This document shows, in pieces, positions 19,314 to 30,948 of a stretch of 39,871 nucleotides of DNA (the first letter of the stretch is position 1; every line of letters starts with the position of its first letter). The position numbers and the translations under genes are program-made. The notes beneath the pieces were generated by a model. It made no database searches and was not told the DNA's origin. It saw only the letters and a list, made by a program, of their open reading frames with translations. Origin of the DNA: an uncultured Clostridia bacterium (GTDB lineage: Bacteria > Bacillota > Clostridia > UBA1212 > UBA1255); assembly GCA_947625435.1 (NCBI GenBank), contig CANQOI010000018.1, forward strand, positions 1 through 39,871, written 5' to 3'.

Positions 19314-20156
19314 TCAAGCCGCAACTCTTTTCCTTATGACTACTGTGGCCAGAAGCGCAGTCGCTGCTATAATGAATATAACAGATGCCGTGTCGGCAGT
19401 GCCGGCATTTCCTGCCGTGTTACCGCCGGTTGTCGAGCCGCCCGTGGAACCGCCCGTTGAGCCTCCCGTTGAGCCTCCCGTCGATCCGCCTGTGGAACCG
19501 CCCGTAGAACCTCCCGTCGATCCGCCTGCGGTGCTGCCCGCGTTCGGATTGTTTTCGTCAAGACCTATGAACACGCTGTCGTCAGCCTCGCCGCCCGCTA
19601 TGAGCTTGAAGCATGCGCAGCGATCGGGCGATGCATACTGTACGGAATCTGTTTCCCATTCGAAGCAGTCTTCCTTACCTTCTTTAACAAGGCCGCTCTG
19701 TACATGCATACCGGCGACCGGAGCCAAGCTCGGATCCAGAGGCGCCACATCGGTAACCTCAAGAACTACAACATAGTTTCCTGCGGGTACGGTCTTATCG
19801 AAAACGATCTCAAAATCCAGATTGTCGGATGTGCTCGTTCCGGATTTAGTGGCAACGGCAGTTCCGTCACGGCTGGTGTCAAAATCGTTGTCCCAGTTGT
19901 AGACCGACATGGTCCAGTCTATGGAACCGGAGCCTCCGCCCGGAGTCCACTGAGCAAAATGAATGCCCGTGAAAGCAACGGTCGTGTTAAAATGCACCGC
20001 ATAATACTGATCGGTATCAAGCACTATAGCGCTGCCCGGATCGCCGGGCTGCTCCGCGAATTCGGGATAGCCGGGAGTCGCGGCGAAAACAGTCGACATG
20101 CCGAGACATGCTATGAGCACTGAAACTACAGTGAAGAACAATATCGATTTCCTCAT
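19314..20156 (-). CDS. secreted surface protein with Gly-Gly-Ser-Thr repeats and C-terminal membrane anchor
   Basis: The 280 residues divide into a signal peptide (1-26, cleavage near VFAA), a globular beta-rich domain of about 180 residues with Cys164, Cys180 and Cys182, a flexible linker of nine GGST-type repeats (about 207-242), and a hydrophobic anchor (257-274) ending RKRVAA. The layout (linker, then a small TAD-T motif, then helix and basic tail) resembles sortase-processed or membrane-retained surface proteins, but no LPxTG is present. ATG 20156 has AGGAGG upstream; the in-frame extension to 20360 crosses the promoter. The family of the domain is not recognised. A strong promoter suggests high expression. 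Confidence 0.8.
   Translation of the reverse strand: MRKSILFFTVVSVLIACLGMSTVFAATPGYPEFAEQPGDPGSAIVLDTDQYYAVHFNTTVAFTGIHFAQWTPGGGSGSIDWTMSVYNWDNDFDTSRDGTAVATKSGTSTSDNLDFEIVFDKTVPAGNYVVVLEVTDVAPLDPSLAPVAGMHVQSGLVKEGKEDCFEWETDSVQYASPDRCACFKLIAGGEADDSVFIGLDENNPNAGSTAGGSTGGSTGGSTGGSTGGSTGGSTGGSTGGSTTGGNTAGNAGTADTASVIFIIAATALLATVVIRKRVAA
19431..19538. repeat. 12-base tandem repeats encoding (Gly-Gly-Ser-Thr)n
   Basis: About nine units of 12 bases encode the GGST linker on the minus strand. Units differ at third positions, so they are old and partly diverged, but the tract is a likely site of length change by slippage or recombination. Confidence 0.85.
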
Positions 20157-20189
20157 TGAAAGTACCTCCTGTAAAATAATTATGGCGCA

Positions 20190-20219
20190 ATTATAGTTTA
20201 ATTTTGTATAAACTGTCAA
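20190..20219 (-). promoter_or_regulatory. promoter of the secreted repeat protein
   Basis: On the minus strand a perfect TTGACA (20214-20219) is followed after 18 bases by a perfect TATAAT (20190-20195), about 33 bases before the ATG at 20156. Confidence 0.8.
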
Positions 20220-20289
20220 CCGTAAAATATAAATACGCACATAGCACCCGCGCCGCGCGCGGCAAATTGCAGGCAAAACGCAGACGCAT

Positions 20290-20325
20290 ATCAATAATAT
20301 TAATCCATAAATTAATTTTATTGAT
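20290..20325. promoter_or_regulatory. 36-base palindrome, candidate operator
   Basis: Arms ATCAATAATATTAAT (20290-20304) and ATTAATTTTATTGAT (20311-20325) match at 14 of 15 positions around a 6-base centre. It sits between divergent promoters, 28 bases upstream of the -35 box at 20354. AT-rich arms and no T-run make a terminator less likely than a protein-binding site. Confidence 0.6.
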
Positions 20326-20353
20326 ACAGAAATTATCTTTTTTATTTTACCTA

Positions 20354-20382
20354 TTGACAAAATAAATATAATGTTTTACTAT
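20354..20382 (+). promoter_or_regulatory. promoter of the DUF2089 / repeat-protein operon
   Basis: A perfect TTGACA (20354-20359), a 17-base spacer and TACTAT (20377-20382) precede the ATG at 20420 by 37 bases. A GTAAAAT heptamer (in reverse) ends four bases before the -35 box. Confidence 0.75.
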
Positions 20383-20419: not shown

Positions 20420-20797
20420 ATGATGTACGGAACGCCTAAGAAATGTCCCGTCTGCGGAGAGGAGCTTGTGATCACTCAGATGAGATGCGGTAACTGCAGG
20501 ACCGCGATCTCAGGTGAATTCAGGCAATGCAGATTCTGCCGGCTGGACGAAAGACATTCGGAATTTTTGATCGCTTTTCTTAAATGCAGGGGAAGCATCA
20601 AGGATGTGGAGAAGGAACTCGGCATATCGTATCCGTCGGTGCGGGCGCTGCTTGACAGTCTGCTCCGCGAGCTCGGACTGGACGGAAACACTGCGGCCGG
20701 CGAAAGCCCGTCTTCCGCAAGGATGGAAATACTTTCACAGGTGGCGGACGGCAGTATTTCACCGGACGAGGCATCCAGACTCCTGCGCCGCAATTGA
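20420..20797 (+). CDS. DUF2089 family zinc-ribbon / helix-turn-helix protein
   Basis: This small predicted regulator has 125 residues. An N-terminal zinc ribbon has CPVC (9-12) and CGNC (23-26), and an extra third pair CRFC (37-40) stands where the family usually has no cysteines. A helix-turn-helix-like segment (LKCRGSIKDVEKELGISYPS) covers about 54-73, and the C-terminus (about 101-125, EILSQVADGSISPDEASRLL) is a short two-helix module. The same module begins the next protein. DUF2089 proteins often stand next to stress-response genes with a YvlB/LiaX-like protein. A GGAGG lies upstream; ATG 20423 is an equally possible start. It probably controls its own operon, perhaps through the palindrome at 20290. 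Confidence 0.85.
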   Translation: MMYGTPKKCPVCGEELVITQMRCGNCRTAISGEFRQCRFCRLDERHSEFLIAFLKCRGSIKDVEKELGISYPSVRALLDSLLRELGLDGNTAAGESPSSARMEILSQVADGSISPDEASRLLRRN

Positions 20798-20830: not shown

Positions 20831-22504
20831 ATGTTTGGCAGAAATAAGAACGCGGAACGAGCCGGATCGGACAGCGAGATGATGAGGATACTGAACATGC
20901 TCAAAGACGGGCAGATAAGTCCTTCCGATGCCGAACGGCTCATAAGCGCCATGGAAGACGGGGCCCCTTCCGAAAGAGGAGCGGATCGGGCCGCGAACGA
21001 AATCAAAGGGACCGTATACGGCCGCGTAGAGGGCGACATCATAGGAGATGTGGACGAGATAGCCGAATCAGCCGTCATTTCGGGAAATATAGACGGAAAT
21101 GTGCTCGGAGATGTTGACGGCGTTGTCAAAGGGAGCGTTACGGGCCGCATAAAGGGCGATCTCAGCGGCAGCATAGACGGAGATGTGGGGAGCGTAGAAG
21201 GCGACCTCAACGGAAATGTGCGCGGAAACGTATGCGGCGATGTAGGGGGCGATCTTAACGGCAACGTGCACGGAAATGTGTGCGGCAGCGTAGGGGGAGA
21301 CCTTAACGGAAATGTGGACGGGAGAGTAGAAGGCAGCATAGGAGGCGACCTCAACGGCCATGTAGGCTGCGATGTAGGCGAAGTAGAGGGCGACCTTAAC
21401 GGAATTGTAAACGGAAGCGTGAACGGCGATATAGGAGGCGACCTCAACGGAAATGTGGACGGAAGCGTAGAGGGCGTCATAAAAGGAAGCTTTAACGGCA
21501 CTGTACGCCGCCATCCGAATAATATGAGCGGAGGCACGCGCGAGGGGTTTGGGAGACGCACTATACGTGTAAGACGCGATGACAGCAGGCCTGTGAACAT
21601 AAGATTTGCGAGGCATCAGAGAAACGGCATAAGCGGCACCGCGCGCCTGCAGTGGACGACCGACGAAGCCGAGAGAAACGAATGGTTCTCTCAGAGAGAA
21701 GCAGACAGACGCCGCCGCGAGAATGACAGGCGCCGCCGCGAAGGCGACAGAATGAGGCGCGAGCACGACAGAGAGATGCGCAGGGACAAAAATGCGGGAG
21801 CGGATATCATTTCACCGGTCGAAGGGAACATTTTCGGCATGGTATACGGAGACATACGTTCCGATGTGGAAGGTAATGTGCTTGACACGGTGGACGGGAA
21901 TATAACCGAGACGGGGCACGTGCGGGGCGCGATATATTCAAATGTGTACGGCGATGTCCGCGGCAGCGTAGGCGGCGACGTATACGGAATGATAGACGGC
22001 GACATAACCGGTGAAATAGGCGGAAACGTCGACAATCTCGTCACGGGCGATCTGCGCGGCACTGTTAAAGGCAGCGTAGGGGGACTGATAGACGGAAATC
22101 TTTCGGGAGAGGTGCTCGGAGACGTAGATTCGGTATGGGGCGATCTGTCGGGGCACGTAGCAGGAAATGTGAAAGGCGTACTTGACGGCGATCTTAAAGG
22201 CTCAGTCGACGGAGACCTGTTAGGCGCCGTGAACGGAAATATCAACGGCTTTGTCGGGGGAGACGCGGCAGGCGATATCGACGGCAACATAAACGGAACG
22301 GTCGGCGGCACGGTAAGAGGATCGGTGAACGGTGATATAACGGGCACTGTGGGAGGCTTTTCGGGAGAGCTTTCGGGAAATTTCAGCGGGCACTGCAGCG
22401 GGGATATGAGCGGCATAATACACGGCCGCTTCACGGGCACATGCGACGGCAGCAACACCGCCCGCGTGACGGCATCCGAAGCGCAGGAGACGCGCGCCTT
22501 GTAA
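20831..22504 (+). CDS. tetrapeptide-repeat (G-x-V-x) solenoid protein with N-terminal SHOCT-like module
   Basis: The 557-residue protein has four parts. Residues 14-43 (MMRILNMLKDGQISPSDAER) are a two-helix SHOCT-like module. Residues 58-226 and 328-540 are two solenoids with glycine at almost every fourth position, as G-(N/D/S)-(V/I/L)-x. Between them, about 276-320 is an extremely charged Arg/Glu/Asp helix. The repeats recall bactofilin and other polymerising beta-helices, but the strict four-residue period is unusual. No signal peptide or membrane segment is seen, so it should be cytoplasmic. AGGAGG precedes the ATG, 33 bases after the DUF2089 gene. In related operons this slot holds a YvlB-type protein with a DUF4097 domain. 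Function is unknown; scaffold or filament is inference. Confidence 0.8.
   Translation: MFGRNKNAERAGSDSEMMRILNMLKDGQISPSDAERLISAMEDGAPSERGADRAANEIKGTVYGRVEGDIIGDVDEIAESAVISGNIDGNVLGDVDGVVKGSVTGRIKGDLSGSIDGDVGSVEGDLNGNVRGNVCGDVGGDLNGNVHGNVCGSVGGDLNGNVDGRVEGSIGGDLNGHVGCDVGEVEGDLNGIVNGSVNGDIGGDLNGNVDGSVEGVIKGSFNGTVRRHPNNMSGGTREGFGRRTIRVRRDDSRPVNIRFARHQRNGISGTARLQWTTDEAERNEWFSQREADRRRRENDRRRREGDRMRREHDREMRRDKNAGADIISPVEGNIFGMVYGDIRSDVEGNVLDTVDGNITETGHVRGAIYSNVYGDVRGSVGGDVYGMIDGDITGEIGGNVDNLVTGDLRGTVKGSVGGLIDGNLSGEVLGDVDSVWGDLSGHVAGNVKGVLDGDLKGSVDGDLLGAVNGNINGFVGGDAAGDIDGNINGTVGGTVRGSVNGDITGTVGGFSGELSGNFSGHCSGDMSGIIHGRFTGTCDGSNTARVTASEAQETRAL
21002..21508 (+). repeat. first block of 12-base repeats encoding G-x-V-x tetrapeptides
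   Basis: Degenerate 12-base units encode about 42 tetrapeptides. A larger 16-residue super-repeat ending in GGDLNGNV recurs at least four times, pointing to growth by duplication of four-unit blocks. Confidence 0.75.
21812..22450 (+). repeat. second block of 12-base repeats encoding G-x-V-x tetrapeptides
   Basis: About 53 tetrapeptides encoded by degenerate 12-base units. This block is more diverged than the first, and GDLNGNV units are nearly absent. The last 40 residues shift to Ser-Gly-Phe rich units. Confidence 0.7.
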
Positions 22505-22899: not shown

Positions 22900-25146
22900 A
22901 TGAGAAAAATGAAATTGATGACGGCTCTGATGGCGCTGGTTCTGGTATTGTCTCTGGTGTTAACGGCTTGTCAGAGCGGAGACAGTGGTGACGGCAAAGT
23001 AACTGCGAAACCGGGCGGAACGAACGTACAGCCGTTGACAGAGTTAGAAATCGATCCGGCAGATGTATTCGAACATGCGGATAATACTTCCGTTTACGAT
23101 GTGATCGGAAGTCAGGTGACCATTGATATGGTAAAGGAAAAGGACGGCCTTGCTTATGTAACCGTAGACGGTACAGAGTATGAGTTGGGCATGGACTTCC
23201 TGTCTATGGCTATGGTTTACAACGTGTCCGTTCCGGAGAACAGCGACAAGTACAAGGACGCCGAAGACGTTTACAACGAGTGGTGGAAACTGTACATTCA
23301 GAGATGGAACTACTTAATGCCGGAAGTTCCGCTGTATTCCAATCAGTATTTTGATCTTTACAGTGCAAAGATCACGGATTTTGAGACTTCTCCGTATTGG
23401 GGTCCTGCGGACGCTATCGTTGCTGCAAAGTCCAGTGACGGCGCAGTGATCCTGGGCAGTGCTACAGATCTGTCCGGTTTGTTCAGAAACTCTTCATGGG
23501 GTAAATCGTCTCCCGGTTCCAGTGACCTGGATGTGCAGAACCTGACCACCGGTTATTCTACTGCACAGAGCAATAAAGAAGGCGTCTACATTTGGAATAT
23601 GATGGCTCTGGCTGAAGAACCTACCAGCGTAATAAATGAGGATGGTACGCTGACCTATACCATTAAGATCAAGAATGATCTGAAGTTCAGCGACGGTTCT
23701 CCCATTACTGCGAAGAACTACATTGCCAATATTCTGGCTAACAGCACCGCTGTATCCAGCGAGGCAGGCGGAAGCGGAACAGCCGGTTTGCAGCTGGTCG
23801 GCTTTACGGATTTCAACAAGTACACAGGTGAAGGCGACACCGTTTACTTTGAAGGTGTGAAAATGTTGGATGACTATACCTTCTCTGTAACATATCTGTC
23901 TGATTATGCGACCTACTATTATGCAATGGTTTACGCGGCATTCTCACCGGATCCCCTGCAGCTGTACCTTGGCGAGAAGGGTGATATCGTTGTAGATCCG
24001 GAAACCAAGAGCTGCGGTCTCAATGCAGACTTCTATGCGAAAGAAAAGAAGGACGGAAAAGATGCGTATGTTGTTGCCTCTCAGATCGTGGATAATCTGA
24101 AGTGGGATTCTTCTCTGCCTTATTCCGGTCCGTATACAGTAAGCAACTATGATGAATCTACTTTGACCGCAACACTGAAGCGTAATCCCGTTTATCCCGG
24201 CGATACTGCAAGAGGAACGGCCAGCATCGATACCATTACGTACGTGAAGATCGTTGCGGAGACCCAGATGGATCAGTTCAAGGCCGGACAGGTTGACGTA
24301 TTGGCAGGCATTACCGGCGCAGCGGAAACGGAAAGTGCAGTGAATACGGTAAAGGACAATCCCGATAAGTACAAAGAGACTCACTATGACAGAGCCGGTT
24401 ACGGTAAGCTGGGCTTCAGGGCAGACTTCGGTTCCTGCATGTTCGCTTCTGTAAGACAGGCGATCGCCTATAGTATCGACAGAAATGAATTCTCACAGAC
24501 CTTCACCGGAGGTTACGGTACGGTCGTACACGGCCCGTATTATCCGAAATCTCCCACGCTGGCAGCTGTTTCAGATGAGATCAAATTGAATCAGTACCAG
24601 CAGAGTCTTGACAGCGCGCTTCAGGTTCTGGAAGCGGACGGTTGGATTTACAATGCAGACGGTACTCCTTATGACGCAAGTAAGGGCGGCGTTAGATACA
24701 AGAAACTGAGCAAAGAAAAGCATGAACTTACTGCACCGAACCTGACATTTGCTTCCGTAGATAATAAATACAAAGTTGTAAAGCTCAGCGACGGCAACTA
24801 TTATATGCCTTTGGTTGTAAACTATTACGGAACACAGCCGAATACCTTTACGGATCTGCTGGTAACCAAATGGGCCGGCAATCAGGATATGATGACGAAG
24901 CTGGGTATGTACATCGACTACATTGAAACCGATTTCACCACCGGTGTAAACGGTGAATATGTACACGATGAAGGCGCAGGATTCGACGGTAAGTGGAAAC
25001 TGAATGCGATCAACTTCGCGACCGGATTTACTTCCGCTATCTACGACTATGCCTTTAACTGGACCATTAATCCGGATATGTATGATTCCTATTCTGCATG
25101 CTATGTGAAAGACGAAGCAGACTTTGCGGAAAATTACAAGAAATAA
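22900..25146 (+). CDS. oppA: oligopeptide ABC transporter substrate-binding lipoprotein (SBP family 5)
   Basis: This extracellular receptor delivers peptides, or a similar ligand, to the OppBC channel. The signal peptide ends in LTAC with acylated Cys24. The family 5 core follows, with the typical GTLTYTIKIKNDLKFSDGSPITA segment at about residues 245-267 and the later ARGTASIDTITYVKIV and SVRQAIAYSIDRNEF regions. At 748 residues it is about 200 longer than classical OppA. The extra is an N-terminal domain of roughly 200 residues rich in Trp and Tyr (NEWWKLYIQRWNYLMP). GGAGG precedes ATG 22900. Codons are those of a highly expressed gene, without ATA. A terminator follows, so it is probably made in excess over the other subunits. 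Confidence 0.9.
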   Translation: MRKMKLMTALMALVLVLSLVLTACQSGDSGDGKVTAKPGGTNVQPLTELEIDPADVFEHADNTSVYDVIGSQVTIDMVKEKDGLAYVTVDGTEYELGMDFLSMAMVYNVSVPENSDKYKDAEDVYNEWWKLYIQRWNYLMPEVPLYSNQYFDLYSAKITDFETSPYWGPADAIVAAKSSDGAVILGSATDLSGLFRNSSWGKSSPGSSDLDVQNLTTGYSTAQSNKEGVYIWNMMALAEEPTSVINEDGTLTYTIKIKNDLKFSDGSPITAKNYIANILANSTAVSSEAGGSGTAGLQLVGFTDFNKYTGEGDTVYFEGVKMLDDYTFSVTYLSDYATYYYAMVYAAFSPDPLQLYLGEKGDIVVDPETKSCGLNADFYAKEKKDGKDAYVVASQIVDNLKWDSSLPYSGPYTVSNYDESTLTATLKRNPVYPGDTARGTASIDTITYVKIVAETQMDQFKAGQVDVLAGITGAAETESAVNTVKDNPDKYKETHYDRAGYGKLGFRADFGSCMFASVRQAIAYSIDRNEFSQTFTGGYGTVVHGPYYPKSPTLAAVSDEIKLNQYQQSLDSALQVLEADGWIYNADGTPYDASKGGVRYKKLSKEKHELTAPNLTFASVDNKYKVVKLSDGNYYMPLVVNYYGTQPNTFTDLLVTKWAGNQDMMTKLGMYIDYIETDFTTGVNGEYVHDEGAGFDGKWKLNAINFATGFTSAIYDYAFNWTINPDMYDSYSACYVKDEADFAENYKK

Positions 25147-25294: not shown

Positions 25295-26317
25295 ATGGGC
25301 AAATATATACTGAAGCGTATATTGTATATCCTGGTCGTGTTTTTTATCCTGTCGTTCATGATCTTTATGATTTACAACATGCTGCCGGTGGACAAAGCGG
25401 CGGAGCGGGCCCGGGAAGAAGTGAAAACCAGCAAAGGGCAGTTGAATTATGACGATCGATATGAATACTGGCAGGAAAAGCTCGGGCTGGACGGAACAAA
25501 ATTTGAACGATATCTGCGGTGGTTAGGGATCTATCCTTACAGTGACGGTTCGTATAACGGACTGCTGCAGGGGAATCTGGGTAATTCCACGCAATATAAC
25601 AAGCCGGTGGCAGAAGTCCTGATGACACCGATGGAAAATACCATTATGATCAATATCTTGGCTACGATCCTGGCCTTGGGAATCACCATCCCTTTGGGCA
25701 TTTTCTGTGCGGTGAAGCGCGGATCCAAACGGGATGTGGCCGTGCAGGTCGGTACGATCGTAGGCTACAGTCTTCCTGTCTTTATTATTGCGATTGTATT
25801 CATCTGGCTGTTTGCCGTGATACTGGGTTGGTTTCCGGTTTCCGGCATGATTACTGCCAACAGCCTGGACTGGTCGCCTTTGAGGCAGTTTGGCGACAGG
25901 CTGTACCATCTGGCATTGCCGTTGATCGTCATGACCTTCTGTTCTCTGGGCGGCATGACCCGATATGTTCGAGCATCCATGATCGAAGCCCTGTCCATGG
26001 ACTGCATCCGTACCGCCAGAGCCAAAGGCCTGCGGGAGAAAGTAGTCGTATATTCCCATGCTTGGCGAAACGCCCTGATACCCATTATAACCCTTGTCAT
26101 AGGTTGGTTCCTGGGCATATTCAGCGGCTCCATCATGGTGGAAAATATTTTTGCATTAAACGGTATCGGCAAAGTCTATTACAGTGCTTTGACGGTGAAC
26201 GATAACGAAGTGGTGTTGGCCCTTCAAATGTTCTATATCATGATCTCTCTTCTGGGTAATCTGATCACGGACATTGCCTACGGGTTTGTTGATCCTCGTG
26301 TCAGAGTTAACAAGTAG
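25295..26317 (+). CDS. oppB: oligopeptide ABC transporter permease OppB
   Basis: This is one of two membrane subunits, 340 residues. TM1 is at about residues 9-31. An external region of about 80 residues (to ~110) follows, charged and aromatic, and ends GNLGNSTQYNKPVAEVL. The five-helix BPD_transp_1 domain then runs to the end. The EAA coupling loop reads EALSMDCIRTARAKGLREK at about residues 230-248. The external loop is longer than in typical DppB/OppB. GGAGG precedes the ATG at 25295; the frame is open further up, to 25163, but that would cover the terminator. It pairs with the RCC1-bearing OppC. Confidence 0.92.
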   Translation: MGKYILKRILYILVVFFILSFMIFMIYNMLPVDKAAERAREEVKTSKGQLNYDDRYEYWQEKLGLDGTKFERYLRWLGIYPYSDGSYNGLLQGNLGNSTQYNKPVAEVLMTPMENTIMINILATILALGITIPLGIFCAVKRGSKRDVAVQVGTIVGYSLPVFIIAIVFIWLFAVILGWFPVSGMITANSLDWSPLRQFGDRLYHLALPLIVMTFCSLGGMTRYVRASMIEALSMDCIRTARAKGLREKVVVYSHAWRNALIPIITLVIGWFLGIFSGSIMVENIFALNGIGKVYYSALTVNDNEVVLALQMFYIMISLLGNLITDIAYGFVDPRVRVNK

Positions 26318-26331
26318 AAGGAGGGGACACA

Positions 26332-28308
26332 ATGGCAAATCAAACTGAAAATAAACGGAATCCAAAAACCGATTCCGGATCAAATATAAAACAGAATCCT
26401 ATTGCTAAAGTAGGAAAGACTCTGTGGCGTTGGCTGCGGCGGATGTTTCTCGGTGCCAGCAAGGAACTGAGCCAGGAAGCGATACTGGAAGTGGAACGTC
26501 TGGAAAGCCCGTCCAGACTGGCAGTCAAGGCTTTTTTCCGCCGGAAGCTGGCCGTGGCGGCTCTGATCATTCTGATCCTGCTGTTCTTATTTGTATTCAT
26601 CGGTCCGTATTTCTTCCCCATGGATCTGACCTATACGGATCCGTTGCAGGCAAATGTGCGGCCTAACTATTCCATGCGCAGTGTGCCGAAGGATCTGGCG
26701 GGCAAGATCCGCTCTATCAACGGGTACGCGGACTTTACAGTGGGCGTCAGCAAGGACAATACCATGTATATATGGGGTAATACCTGGAACGCCCTTGCAA
26801 AAGATGATTATTCAGATTTTCCGGAAGAAATCCGGGAGGGCAATGTTCTGATGGCCTCCGCAGGTTCGGATTTTGTCATCGCAGTGACCACGGAAGGCAA
26901 AGTAGTGGGCTGGGGCAACAATAACTTAGGCCAATACGGAGTTGTCAACAAGGACGATCCGCGGACCGAAATGCCGGAACAGATCCTGAACGGCACCGTG
27001 GACCCGGACAAAGTACAGCAGCTGCTCTGCGGCTATCAGGCCACGTCTATGGTCATTGACGGAAAACTGTACATGTGGGGCAACAACAATGCCTGTCAGA
27101 ATATGACGGAGCTGTTGGGTAAGGACTTTACCAATGTGCAGAAAGTGGCCATGACCGACGACTACGCAGTGCTTTTGTTTGACGACGGCACGATATACGG
27201 CGGCAACAACACTTTCTTCCGACAGAGCGCTGTTTCTTCCATCAGCGGAAAGATAGACAGCTTTGAATCATATCTGGCGGACCACAAAGTCGTGGACATT
27301 GCAGCCACTAAGAAAAATGTGGCCTTTCTTACGGAAGAAGGAGAAGTTCTGGTCTGGGGAAATGCCAATTACGGCGAGACAGACTATCCGGTTCTGCCGG
27401 AAGGCGAATCCTTTGTTAAACTTGAAGGCGGCTCCCGGCATTTTGTAGGACTGACCGACACGGGTAAGGTTTATGCTTGGGGTCTGGATGACTACGGTCA
27501 GGCCGATCTGGCAGGCGTAGCTGCCGGAGAGATTTTTGTCGGCGCAAAACAGACCTATCTGGTTGATGAAAACGGCGTACTGACCGAAAGCTACGGGCAG
27601 AGAGGCTATCTGTTCGGCACCGACAGCATGGGCAGAGACGTACTGACCCGGATCGTACACGGCGGAAAAATGACCATGACCATCGGTGCGGTGGCGGTCA
27701 TCGTGTCGTCGATCATCGCCATCATCATCGGCTGCCTGTCCGGTTATTTCGGCGGTTGGGTGGATATGCTTCTCATGCGTGTGACGGAAATATTCTCCGC
27801 CATTCCATTCCTGCCCTTTGCCATGATGCTGTCTTATGTCATTAAATATTACCCCATCGGGGAGACCATGCGAATATTCATCATCATGATCATCCTGGGA
27901 CTCTTAAGCTGGACCGGCTTGGCACGCATGATCCGCGGGCAGGTGTTGGCAGAACGGGAAAAAGAATTTGTCATCGCGGCTAAATCCATGGGGATACGGG
28001 AGCGGAGCATCGCATTCAAGCACATTTTGCCCAACGTCATATCTGTCATTCTTGTCAGCATGACGCTGGATTTTGCCGGCTGTCTGCTGACGGAATCTTC
28101 TCTGTCCTACCTGGGCTTCGGTGTTCAGCAGCCGCAGCCGACATGGGGCAATATGCTCTTCGGTGCCAACAACTCAATAGTAATACAGAACTACTGGTGG
28201 CAGTGGCTGTTCCCGGCAATCTTCCTATCAATCGCCACGATCAGCATCAATATTATCGGCGACACGCTGCGGGATGTATTGGATCCCAAGAGCAGTCAGG
28301 AAAAATAG
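26332..28308 (+). CDS. oppC: OppC permease with an RCC1-like beta-propeller inserted in its first external loop
   Basis: The protein has 658 residues, against about 300 for OppC. Residues 1-70 are a charged cytoplasmic tail with the OppC_N-type helix, TM1 is at about 72-95, and the transport domain runs from YLFGTDSMGRDVLTR (426) to the end, with the EAA loop near 544-568. Between TM1 and GTDSMGRD lie about 310 extra residues (115-425) with RCC1 hallmarks: repeated W-G-N or Y-x-W-G strands (MYIWGN, VVGWGNNNLGQYG, LYMWGNNN, VLVWGNANYG, VYAWGLDDYGQAD) alternating with A-T-x-G-x-V. The insertion falls between TM1 and TM2, so it should be outside the membrane, facing OppA. There is no stop or frameshift, so this is one gene. 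Confidence 0.92.
   Translation: MANQTENKRNPKTDSGSNIKQNPIAKVGKTLWRWLRRMFLGASKELSQEAILEVERLESPSRLAVKAFFRRKLAVAALIILILLFLFVFIGPYFFPMDLTYTDPLQANVRPNYSMRSVPKDLAGKIRSINGYADFTVGVSKDNTMYIWGNTWNALAKDDYSDFPEEIREGNVLMASAGSDFVIAVTTEGKVVGWGNNNLGQYGVVNKDDPRTEMPEQILNGTVDPDKVQQLLCGYQATSMVIDGKLYMWGNNNACQNMTELLGKDFTNVQKVAMTDDYAVLLFDDGTIYGGNNTFFRQSAVSSISGKIDSFESYLADHKVVDIAATKKNVAFLTEEGEVLVWGNANYGETDYPVLPEGESFVKLEGGSRHFVGLTDTGKVYAWGLDDYGQADLAGVAAGEIFVGAKQTYLVDENGVLTESYGQRGYLFGTDSMGRDVLTRIVHGGKMTMTIGAVAVIVSSIIAIIIGCLSGYFGGWVDMLLMRVTEIFSAIPFLPFAMMLSYVIKYYPIGETMRIFIIMIILGLLSWTGLARMIRGQVLAEREKEFVIAAKSMGIRERSIAFKHILPNVISVILVSMTLDFAGCLLTESSLSYLGFGVQQPQPTWGNMLFGANNSIVIQNYWWQWLFPAIFLSIATISINIIGDTLRDVLDPKSSQEK
26704..27606 (+). 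other. RCC1-like repeat domain within oppC
   Basis: About five to six RCC1-like blades (residues about 125-425) can be counted from the W-G-x-N-x-x-G-Q motifs. A complete propeller has seven, so it may be short or have degenerate blades. Bacterial RCC1 repeats are common in secreted proteins; inside a permease loop they are not something I know to be described. Confidence 0.8.
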
Positions 28309-28328: not shown

Positions 28329-29348
28329 ATGCCGCTATTAGAAGTAAAAAACCTCCATACCTATTTTAAGACAAGAAAAGGTATTGTTAAGGCTGTCAAT
28401 GATGTTTCCTATTCTCTGGAGCCCCGGAAGACAATCGGTATTGTAGGCGAATCAGGTTCCGGAAAATCGGTTTCAGCCATGAGCATTTTGCAGCTGCTGG
28501 ACGGAAACGGCTACATCGCCGGCGGGGAGATCTGGTTCGACGGTGTGGATCTTACCAAACTGAGTCAGCAGCAGATGTATGATATACGGGGCAACAAGAT
28601 CTCGGTGATCTTTCAGGAACCGATGACCAGCCTGAACCCTGTTTTTACAGTAAAAAAGCAGCTCAGCGAGCCGTTTATGATCCATCAGCATCTGAGTAAG
28701 AAAGAAGCGGAAAAGAAAGTTCTTGAAATGCTGTACTCTGTGCAGATCCCCAATCCGGAAGCGGTCATGCGGCAGTATCCCCATCAGCTTTCCGGCGGTA
28801 TGCGGCAACGTGTCATGATAGCCATGGCACTGGCCTGCAAGCCTAAGATCCTGATCGCGGACGAACCCACCACCGCTTTGGACGTGACTATTCAGGCTCA
28901 GATTCTGCGACTGATGAATGAACTGCAGAAGGAAAACGGCACATCCATTATTTTTATCACCCACGATCTGGGCGTAATAAATGAAATGGCGGACGATGTG
29001 GTGGTCATGTACTGCGGCCAGGTGGTAGAGCAGAGCTCCGCGGAAGTGATCTTTACCAATTGCCCGGTTAGCCACCCATATACGGAAGGTCTTATGCATT
29101 CCATTCCCAGACTGGATAATATGGGTAACCGTCTGGAGCCGATACCCGGCGTGGTTCCCCACCCGCTGGCGTTGCCGAAAGGATGTAAATTCGCACCTCG
29201 GTGCAAATATGCTACCCGGAAGTGCCTGGAGGAAGAACCGGAGCTGGTGGAAGTCAACCCGGGTCAGAAGATCCGATGCTTTTATCCGGAAAAGGAGGTA
29301 AGGAACAGTGCCGAACACAAACAAGCTCTTGTCGATCACGAATCTTAA
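28329..29348 (+). CDS. oppD: oligopeptide ABC transporter ATP-binding protein OppD
   Basis: This is one of two ATPase subunits, 339 residues. Walker A GESGSGKS is at 40-47, the Q loop is in VIFQEPMTSLNP at about 96-107, the signature is LSGGMRQR at about 153-160, Walker B is ILIADEP, and the H-loop follows in ITHDLGV. The C-terminal oligo_HPY region has the cysteine pattern CKFAPRCKYATRKC. AAGGAG precedes ATG 28329; the frame open from 28143 lies inside oppC and is a read-through artefact. It overlaps oppF by 41 bases. Unlike OppF it has normal length and no insertion. Confidence 0.95.
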   Translation: MPLLEVKNLHTYFKTRKGIVKAVNDVSYSLEPRKTIGIVGESGSGKSVSAMSILQLLDGNGYIAGGEIWFDGVDLTKLSQQQMYDIRGNKISVIFQEPMTSLNPVFTVKKQLSEPFMIHQHLSKKEAEKKVLEMLYSVQIPNPEAVMRQYPHQLSGGMRQRVMIAMALACKPKILIADEPTTALDVTIQAQILRLMNELQKENGTSIIFITHDLGVINEMADDVVVMYCGQVVEQSSAEVIFTNCPVSHPYTEGLMHSIPRLDNMGNRLEPIPGVVPHPLALPKGCKFAPRCKYATRKCLEEEPELVEVNPGQKIRCFYPEKEVRNSAEHKQALVDHES

Positions 29349-30948
29349 AAAATATTTTCCCGTGGCGAAGGACAGCATTTTCCAACGGGAACAGCTTTAT
29401 GTCCGCGCCAATGAGGAAATTTCAATTGATATTTACGAAGGGGAGACCTTCGGTCTGGTAGGCGAGTCCGGCTGCGGCAAATCCACCCTTGGCAGGACCG
29501 TACTGCAGTTGTACGATCAGACCGCCGGCAGCACCCTGTATTACGGACGGAAATTGGCAGATTTTGCCCCGTCTTATGTAAAGAAGACGCTTGTAGGCGC
29601 CCCGAAAATGATCGCCGCCTACAAGAAAAAACAAGCGAAAGCTGCGGCGCTGGAGCAGGAATGCGAAGTCGCAGGGGATAAAGCTACGTTTTTCCAACTG
29701 CAGCAGAAGAACCTGGCAGTGGCGGAAGCGGAAACCGCTTTCCAGAACGTGGTCAAGATCCTGGGCGGATTTACCGCATTGGAGGGTGGTTGCAAAGAGG
29801 GCGCCGACCTGCTGCTGAAGAAATATGAGACTGACATGGAGATCGCCCGTGTCAGAAACGGGATCCAGAAGGAAGAGACACAGATCCATTTCCTGGACGC
29901 CAAGGCTCAGACCATGCAAAAGGAAACGGCGGCGGCACGGATCCGCTCCCGAATGGAAAAACACGTAGCGGCCAAGGAACGCCTGCAAAAAACCATGGAG
30001 CAGCTGCTGCAGCGGCAGAATGCGGACGTTCAGCAGTTGGTCGCGCTGAAAAGCCGGTATCAGGACAATTCTTTGTTCGTACAGTATGAGACCATGCTGG
30101 ACGACGGCATAGATCTTTCCCGGCTGCGCTATTCGGAAATGCGATTGCTGCGGAAGGACATCCAGATCATTTTCCAAGATCCCTATTCGTCTCTGAACCC
30201 CAGGATGACCATCGGGCAGATCATTGAAGAAGGTCTTGTGACCCATAAATTTTTCAAGCGGGGCTCGCCCCAGATGAAAGAATATATCTTAAAAGTTATG
30301 CGCCAGTGCGGCTTGCAGGATTATATGCTGCACCGGTATCCCCACCAATTTTCCGGCGGGCAGCGGCAACGAATCTGCATTGCCAGAGCTCTGGCCGTAA
30401 AGCCGAAGTTCATCGTGTGCGACGAATGCGTATCTGCACTGGACGTTTCCATTCAGTCACAGATCATCAACCTGCTGGAAGAGCTGAAGGAAAAAGAGCA
30501 CCTGACATATCTGTTTATTTCTCACGACCTGTCCGTTGTTCGGTACATTTCTGACCGGATCGGGGTTATGTACCTAGGAAATATGGTGGAACTGGGCACG
30601 GCGGAAACGGTATTTTCCGATCCCCGGCATCCGTACACAGTGGCTCTGCTGTCCTCTATTCCTACCACGGATGCAAGCACGAACGAACGAGAGCGGATCA
30701 TTCTGGAAGGCAATATTCCAAGCCCTATCCGGCCTCCGGAAGGCTGCAAATTCCACACACGTTGTTATATGGCCTGTGAAAAATGCAAAGTGGTGCCTCC
30801 TCCTTATGTTGAGGTGGAACCCGGACATTTTGTAGCATGTCATTTTCTGGACAGAAAGATCGACGAACAGGGAAATTATCTGTTTGACCTGCCCCAACGG
30901 CAGAAAGCCGGCAAAACAGGGACTGAGCCGACAAAAGAGGCAGAATAG
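29308..30948 (+). CDS. oppF: OppF ATPase with a coiled-coil insertion between Walker A and the Q loop
   Basis: The protein has 546 residues, against about 320 for OppF. Walker A GESGCGKST is at 52-60. The fold continues to YYGRKLADF (about 86), then some 190 extra residues follow, to about 275, before RLLRKDIQIIFQDPYSSLNP with Q-loop Gln290. The signature is FSGGQ (348-352), Walker B reads FIVCDEC with Glu373 and a Cys in place of the usual Pro, and the H-loop is His406. All catalytic elements are kept. The insertion is Ala/Glu/Lys/Gln-rich heptad-like sequence with no Pro beyond its first residues, so a long helical hairpin is likely. The GTG start has AAAGGAGG upstream. Confidence 0.93.
   Translation: MPNTNKLLSITNLKKYFPVAKDSIFQREQLYVRANEEISIDIYEGETFGLVGESGCGKSTLGRTVLQLYDQTAGSTLYYGRKLADFAPSYVKKTLVGAPKMIAAYKKKQAKAAALEQECEVAGDKATFFQLQQKNLAVAEAETAFQNVVKILGGFTALEGGCKEGADLLLKKYETDMEIARVRNGIQKEETQIHFLDAKAQTMQKETAAARIRSRMEKHVAAKERLQKTMEQLLQRQNADVQQLVALKSRYQDNSLFVQYETMLDDGIDLSRLRYSEMRLLRKDIQIIFQDPYSSLNPRMTIGQIIEEGLVTHKFFKRGSPQMKEYILKVMRQCGLQDYMLHRYPHQFSGGQRQRICIARALAVKPKFIVCDECVSALDVSIQSQIINLLEELKEKEHLTYLFISHDLSVVRYISDRIGVMYLGNMVELGTAETVFSDPRHPYTVALLSSIPTTDASTNERERIILEGNIPSPIRPPEGCKFHTRCYMACEKCKVVPPPYVEVEPGHFVACHFLDRKIDEQGNYLFDLPQRQKAGKTGTEPTKEAE
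29551..30132 (+). other. coiled-coil insertion within the OppF nucleotide-binding domain
   Basis: Residues about 82-275. Two helix-rich segments (about 100-150 and 170-250) flank a short Gly/Phe/Cys stretch (GGFTALEGGCKEG) near 153-165, which looks like a turn. The insertion point is in the ABC beta-subdomain before the Q loop. Confidence 0.75.

Follow-up and report, generated by a model that had tools for sequence, protein, structure and literature searches.

Gene content of the locus

The window, a stretch of 39,871 nucleotides from an uncultured Clostridia bacterium, harbours on its forward strand an operon, oppABCDF, that encodes a type I ABC peptide importer of the Opp/Dpp type. The order is oppA (22900..25146), a substrate-binding protein (SBP) family 5 lipoprotein of 748 aa with the lipobox LTAC; the permease gene oppB (25295..26317); oppC (26332..28308); the ATPase gene oppD (28329..29348; start by MPLLEV); and oppF (29308..30948), a second ATPase gene that carries an insertion of ~190 aa between Walker A and the Q-loop (OppF residues about 84-274; positions about 29557-30129). 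This is the only opp operon in its own genome, where one more SBP_bac_5 gene lies elsewhere. Just upstream of oppA, positions 20831-22504 encode a protein of 557 aa that combines long G-x-V/I-x-G-x-L repeats with a SHOCT-like DUF2089-C domain and is adjoined by a DUF2089 regulator (20420-20797). On the reverse strand, positions 19314-20360 encode a predicted secreted protein with GGST repeats, followed by a C-terminal hydrophobic segment and an RKR tail, that has no Pfam match.

The oppC gene is a single unbroken frame for a permease of 658 aa with an RCC1-type propeller predicted in its first external loop. A K/R-rich N-terminus (inside) precedes TM1 (residues 73-91; 26548..26604, forward strand), which lies within the Pfam domain OppC_N (residues 59-110; 8e-11, 42.1 bits versus a cut-off of 23.9). 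The GTDSMGRD segment (residues 429-436; 27616..27639, forward strand), of which G429, D431 and G434 are invariant across 53 homologues, leads into TM2 and is followed by the BPD_transp_1 transmembrane domain (TMD) with its EAA loop (residues 463-653; 27718..28290, forward strand; 2.7e-32, 112.4 bits versus a cut-off of 26.4). Six hydropathy peaks (73-91, 451-469, 486-504, 513-531, 560-578 and 625-643) bear out TM1 plus five further helices. Moreover, the permease part of the structural model aligns over 277 of the 278 residues of E. coli OppC (8z21_B; Z 30.8, rmsd 2.4; VIA-align), thus an entire ordinary OppC has been retained. Both domains, the fold with its six TM segments, and the operon with SBP family 5, OppB, OppD and OppF place the protein among the Opp/Dpp-type OppC subunits; the NCBIfam equivalog Opp4C (NF045476), at 305.7 bits versus a cut-off of 350, is its best relative and not a family to which it belongs as defined. 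The original prediction, which had described an uninterrupted permease that keeps TM1, the GTDSMGRD segment, five further helices and the EAA loop, was correct on OppC in each testable detail, with frame, Pfam and hydropathy in agreement.

A predicted seven-bladed propeller in the TM1-TM2 loop

The insert spans OppC residues about 118-425 (26683..27606, forward strand). Its repeats score over the curated Pfam cut-offs for WD40_RLD (residues 145-391; 2.7e-49, 168.9 bits versus 150) and for RCC1_2 (four stretches; 1.2e-31, 108.1 bits versus 22), with a further RCC1 match at residues 188-238 (3.5e-10). In the AlphaFold2 model built from a 53-row homologue alignment (mean pLDDT 85, rising to about 90-96 across the bulk of residues 118-425), the set of A, B and C strands recurs seven times between residues 126 and 422, and the domain superposes on BLIP-II (3qi0; Z 26.3, 247 aligned residues, rmsd 2.3) and on UVR8 (Z about 26). 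Repeats and fold both assign it to the RCC1/BLIP-II propellers; the insert is thus a seven-bladed propeller, the fold being predicted with high confidence, and the model supports the propeller that had been proposed from the W-G motifs.

By homology to E. coli OppC the propeller is predicted to be extracellular, and the positively charged N-terminus before TM1 likewise puts the TM1-TM2 loop outside. Pfam and hydropathy positions, together with this homology, uphold the proposed placement of ~310 residues of repeats between TM1 and the transport domain, outside the membrane.

The propeller is under purifying selection and evolves faster than the membrane part: in close pairs dN/dS is mostly 0.03-0.2 in the propeller and about 0.01-0.08 in the TMD, and no diversifying selection was seen in these averages over the whole domain. 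Median identity to the OppC of the window is 39% for the propeller versus 75% for the TMD, and the surface of the propeller is far less conserved (entropy 1.0-2.0 versus 0.48 for the TMD). Face by face, variability is greatest in the C-to-A connecting loops and conservation in the A-B loops; as the A-B loops hold RCC1 fold residues, their conservation was discounted as evidence of an interface. A stand-alone RCC1 protein of the same genome was considered as the source of the domain and rejected, since RCC1_2 matches there occur only in this OppC. Separately, the OppCs of L049 and L050 share nearly identical propeller DNA (dS 0.02) at a TMD dS of 0.28, as if the propeller region had undergone recombination.

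Distribution and origin of the propeller OppC

Screening of 84,980 species genomes yielded 382 relatives, and the propeller architecture was found in 80 kept loci at 39-69% identity, with the query covered over most of its length; most of these are from gut metagenome-assembled genomes (MAGs) that bear the label of Clostridia or of a family within it. Matches at E below 1e-110 occur in 16 of 391 sampled genomes of the class and 14 of 398 of the phylum. The architecture, originally noted at this one locus, thus recurs within oppABCDF operons far more often than chance would allow. Its carriers belong to more than ten families within one phylum and include the single-contig genomes G053 and G071, and in the window's own family the genome of the window is the sole positive among 16. 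Four genomes of the same genus have the right flank in common (murG-like, tpiA and beyond) and lack the operon, with no full-length match anywhere in them. Therefore, the operon was either acquired in this genome or lost from the other four, and on that flank the window's contig is not misbinned.

In nearly all loci with enough flank the gene order is A-B-C-D-F. Across about 90 propeller loci no further conserved gene, such as a peptidase or partner, was found beyond A-F, the other neighbours being confined to subclades. The ~190 aa insertion of OppF is present in most propeller operons; one subclade (L054-L079) has it in shortened form or not at all.

In a tree of the OppC transmembrane domain alone, from which the insert was left out, 91 propeller OppCs form one clade (support 100/99), which shows a single gain of the propeller, in an ancestor of a transporter lineage that has since spread through one bacterial phylum. 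The neighbours of this clade include ordinary OppCs of ~350 aa, as well as OppCs of 600-660 aa (L002, L004-L007, L137-L139 and L141-L143) that carry an insert of ~300 aa at the same site; this sister insert lacks both WG repeats and any Pfam match above a cut-off. The OppC TM1-TM2 loop thus either took up large domains at least twice, or exchanged one for another; it has served as an insertion point for different large domains.

Circular permutation of OppA

The OppA of the window belongs to SBP family 5 by its domain (SBP_bac_5, 112.1 bits versus a Pfam cut-off of 32.4) and its fold, yet it departs from the canonical chain order. Residues 123-175 align with residues 505-557 of the 562-aa protein of PDB 9p48, and residues 200-558 align with residues 20-315, whereas a canonical relative (the OppA of L099) aligns in normal order. 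The AlphaFold model (pLDDT 89, pTM 0.86) matches solved DppA and OppA structures at Z of about 17-18; this alignment starts at residue about 175 of the model and ends about 40-70 residues before the solved C-termini, as expected for a permutation. OppA is thus, by alignment and model, a natural circular permutant, in which the segment of residues 89-178 (23164..23433, forward strand) corresponds to the canonical C-terminus and now lies at the N-terminus, behind the lipobox.

Among the propeller loci, 46 harbour a permuted OppA and 32 a canonical one. The tree needs one permutation event, inside the propeller clade, on a branch whose support is only 66/61. A search of the open-access literature found no paper on a naturally occurring circular permutation in the SBP of an ABC transporter.

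Relation to known transporters and propellers

Opp/Dpp-type importers (E. coli OppBCDF 8z21, DppABCDF and M. tuberculosis OppABCD) resemble the present system in the A, B, C, D and F subunits, in OppC_N and BPD_transp_1, and in fold; the system of the window differs from them by the ~310 aa propeller between TM1 and TM2, the permuted OppA and the OppF insertion. Proteins of the BLIP-II/RCC1 superfamily share the seven blades and WG repeat motifs, but the propeller here is not free and is embedded in a polytopic permease. The P2 domain of MalF has an Ig-like fold. It is comparable as a sizeable folded domain inserted on the outside of a single permease subunit, in the maltose importer MalFGK2E, where it contacts the SBP MalE (PMC3150292), yet it belongs to another permease family, another loop and another fold, and the corresponding contact of OppA is here only inferred. 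The scoop motif of E. coli DppB shows that Opp/Dpp-type permeases use outside elements to hold on to the SBP (PMC12136057); the scoop is a short helix-loop-helix and belongs to the B subunit, whereas the propeller is a domain in C.

Transporter and fold are each of a known kind, and their combination is new as far as the open-access literature goes: no paper was found there that describes RCC1 and OppC in one transporter or defines such a family, in line with the original statement that no transporter of this design had been described. Importing peptides is probably of central importance to gut Clostridia, and there is continuing debate over how SBPs reach their permeases and come off them again. 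The docking of SBPs could be tested directly in this importer lineage, which is widespread and combines a large OppC domain that can be separated with a natural SBP permutation.

A possible docking cradle for OppA

Co-variation of evolutionary distances was compared by mirror-tree in 37 operons from the clade that includes the window's operon, with distances partialled on the other subunits. The OppA and propeller distances are correlated (partial r 0.65), while the propeller with OppB, OppD or OppF gives partial r of about 0. Known contacts rank high in the same analysis (OppD-OppF 0.86, OppB-OppC TMD 0.43 and OppA-OppB 0.33). In the subset of 21 operons with the OppF insertion, the OppA-propeller value falls to 0.34 (p 0.015), and propeller-TMD is at 0.57. 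This signal is indirect, since OppA and the propeller have fast evolution and an extracellular location in common; it favours OppA as the putative partner of the propeller and does not prove contact.

On balance, the most likely role of the propeller, at about even odds, is that of a docking cradle that holds OppA in the manner of MalF P2. The propeller, beside the channel mouth of OppABCDF, would stay bound to the lipoprotein OppA for the greater part of the transport cycle, like MalF P2 to MalE, and the large bound SBP would be kept oriented over OppB and OppC. This reading is favoured by the predicted fold and external placement, by the single clade of propeller OppCs and the purifying selection on the propeller, by the mirror-tree result, by the absence of any other conserved operon gene and by the precedent of MalF P2. 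The nearest solved propellers, BLIP-II, UVR8 and RCC1, are all protein binders, which also speaks for a cradle. Against it stand the lower mirror-tree value in the 21-operon subset and the low conservation of the propeller surface relative to the TMD; moreover, canonical Opp/Dpp importers dock their SBPs without such a domain. Of the original proposal that the propeller might hold an enlarged OppA, the holding thus gains indirect mirror-tree support as an inferred role, and the 'enlarged' OppA is a circular permutant, a feature that the original prediction had missed. More tentatively, the propeller OppC and the permuted OppA may be a co-evolved pair with a novel mode of SBP holding, in which the propeller would grip OppA and the permutation would re-site the lipid anchor, so that the SBP is fixed over the channel.

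The protein-binding record of this fold, BLIP-II and other RCC1 propellers being secreted or soluble binders, would also suit a BLIP-II-like receptor for an outside macromolecule (a host or microbial protein, an inhibitor or a phage), with transport secondary, and the most variable part of the domain, the C-to-A loops, would fit such a role. However, the low dN/dS, averaged over the propeller, gives no sign of arms-race diversification, the propeller distances track those of OppA, and the propeller OppC always sits inside an otherwise standard oppABCDF operon; a receptor is therefore unlikely. Slightly less probable again is a role in the wall, where the propeller would attach to peptidoglycan or a different wall component and position the importer in it, or would make room for a large lipoprotein. 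Its location outside the membrane of a Gram-positive-type envelope is compatible with this, and a non-homologous sister insert of ~300 aa in the identical place would be expected if bulk or position outweighed one particular fold, but Pfam reveals no known wall-binding motif and the established role of RCC1 propellers is mainly protein binding.

The propeller might instead capture or filter peptides itself, or dock a peptidase, and so feed OppA. With a single opp operon (and one further SBP_bac_5 gene) in the genome, whatever accessory step peptide import involves would need to take place at this operon; nevertheless, no conserved peptidase gene adjoins it, and no peptide-channel function is known for RCC1 folds among the matches, which leaves this the least probable of the functional alternatives. 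An assembly or prediction artefact, with a chimeric contig that joins an RCC1 gene to an oppC gene, could be suspected from a draft genome in 86 contigs and from the missing operon in same-genus genomes, and was rejected as having a negligible chance, because the identical junction recurs in the 80 loci and in both single-contig genomes and the right flank is syntenic with that of the four same-genus genomes.
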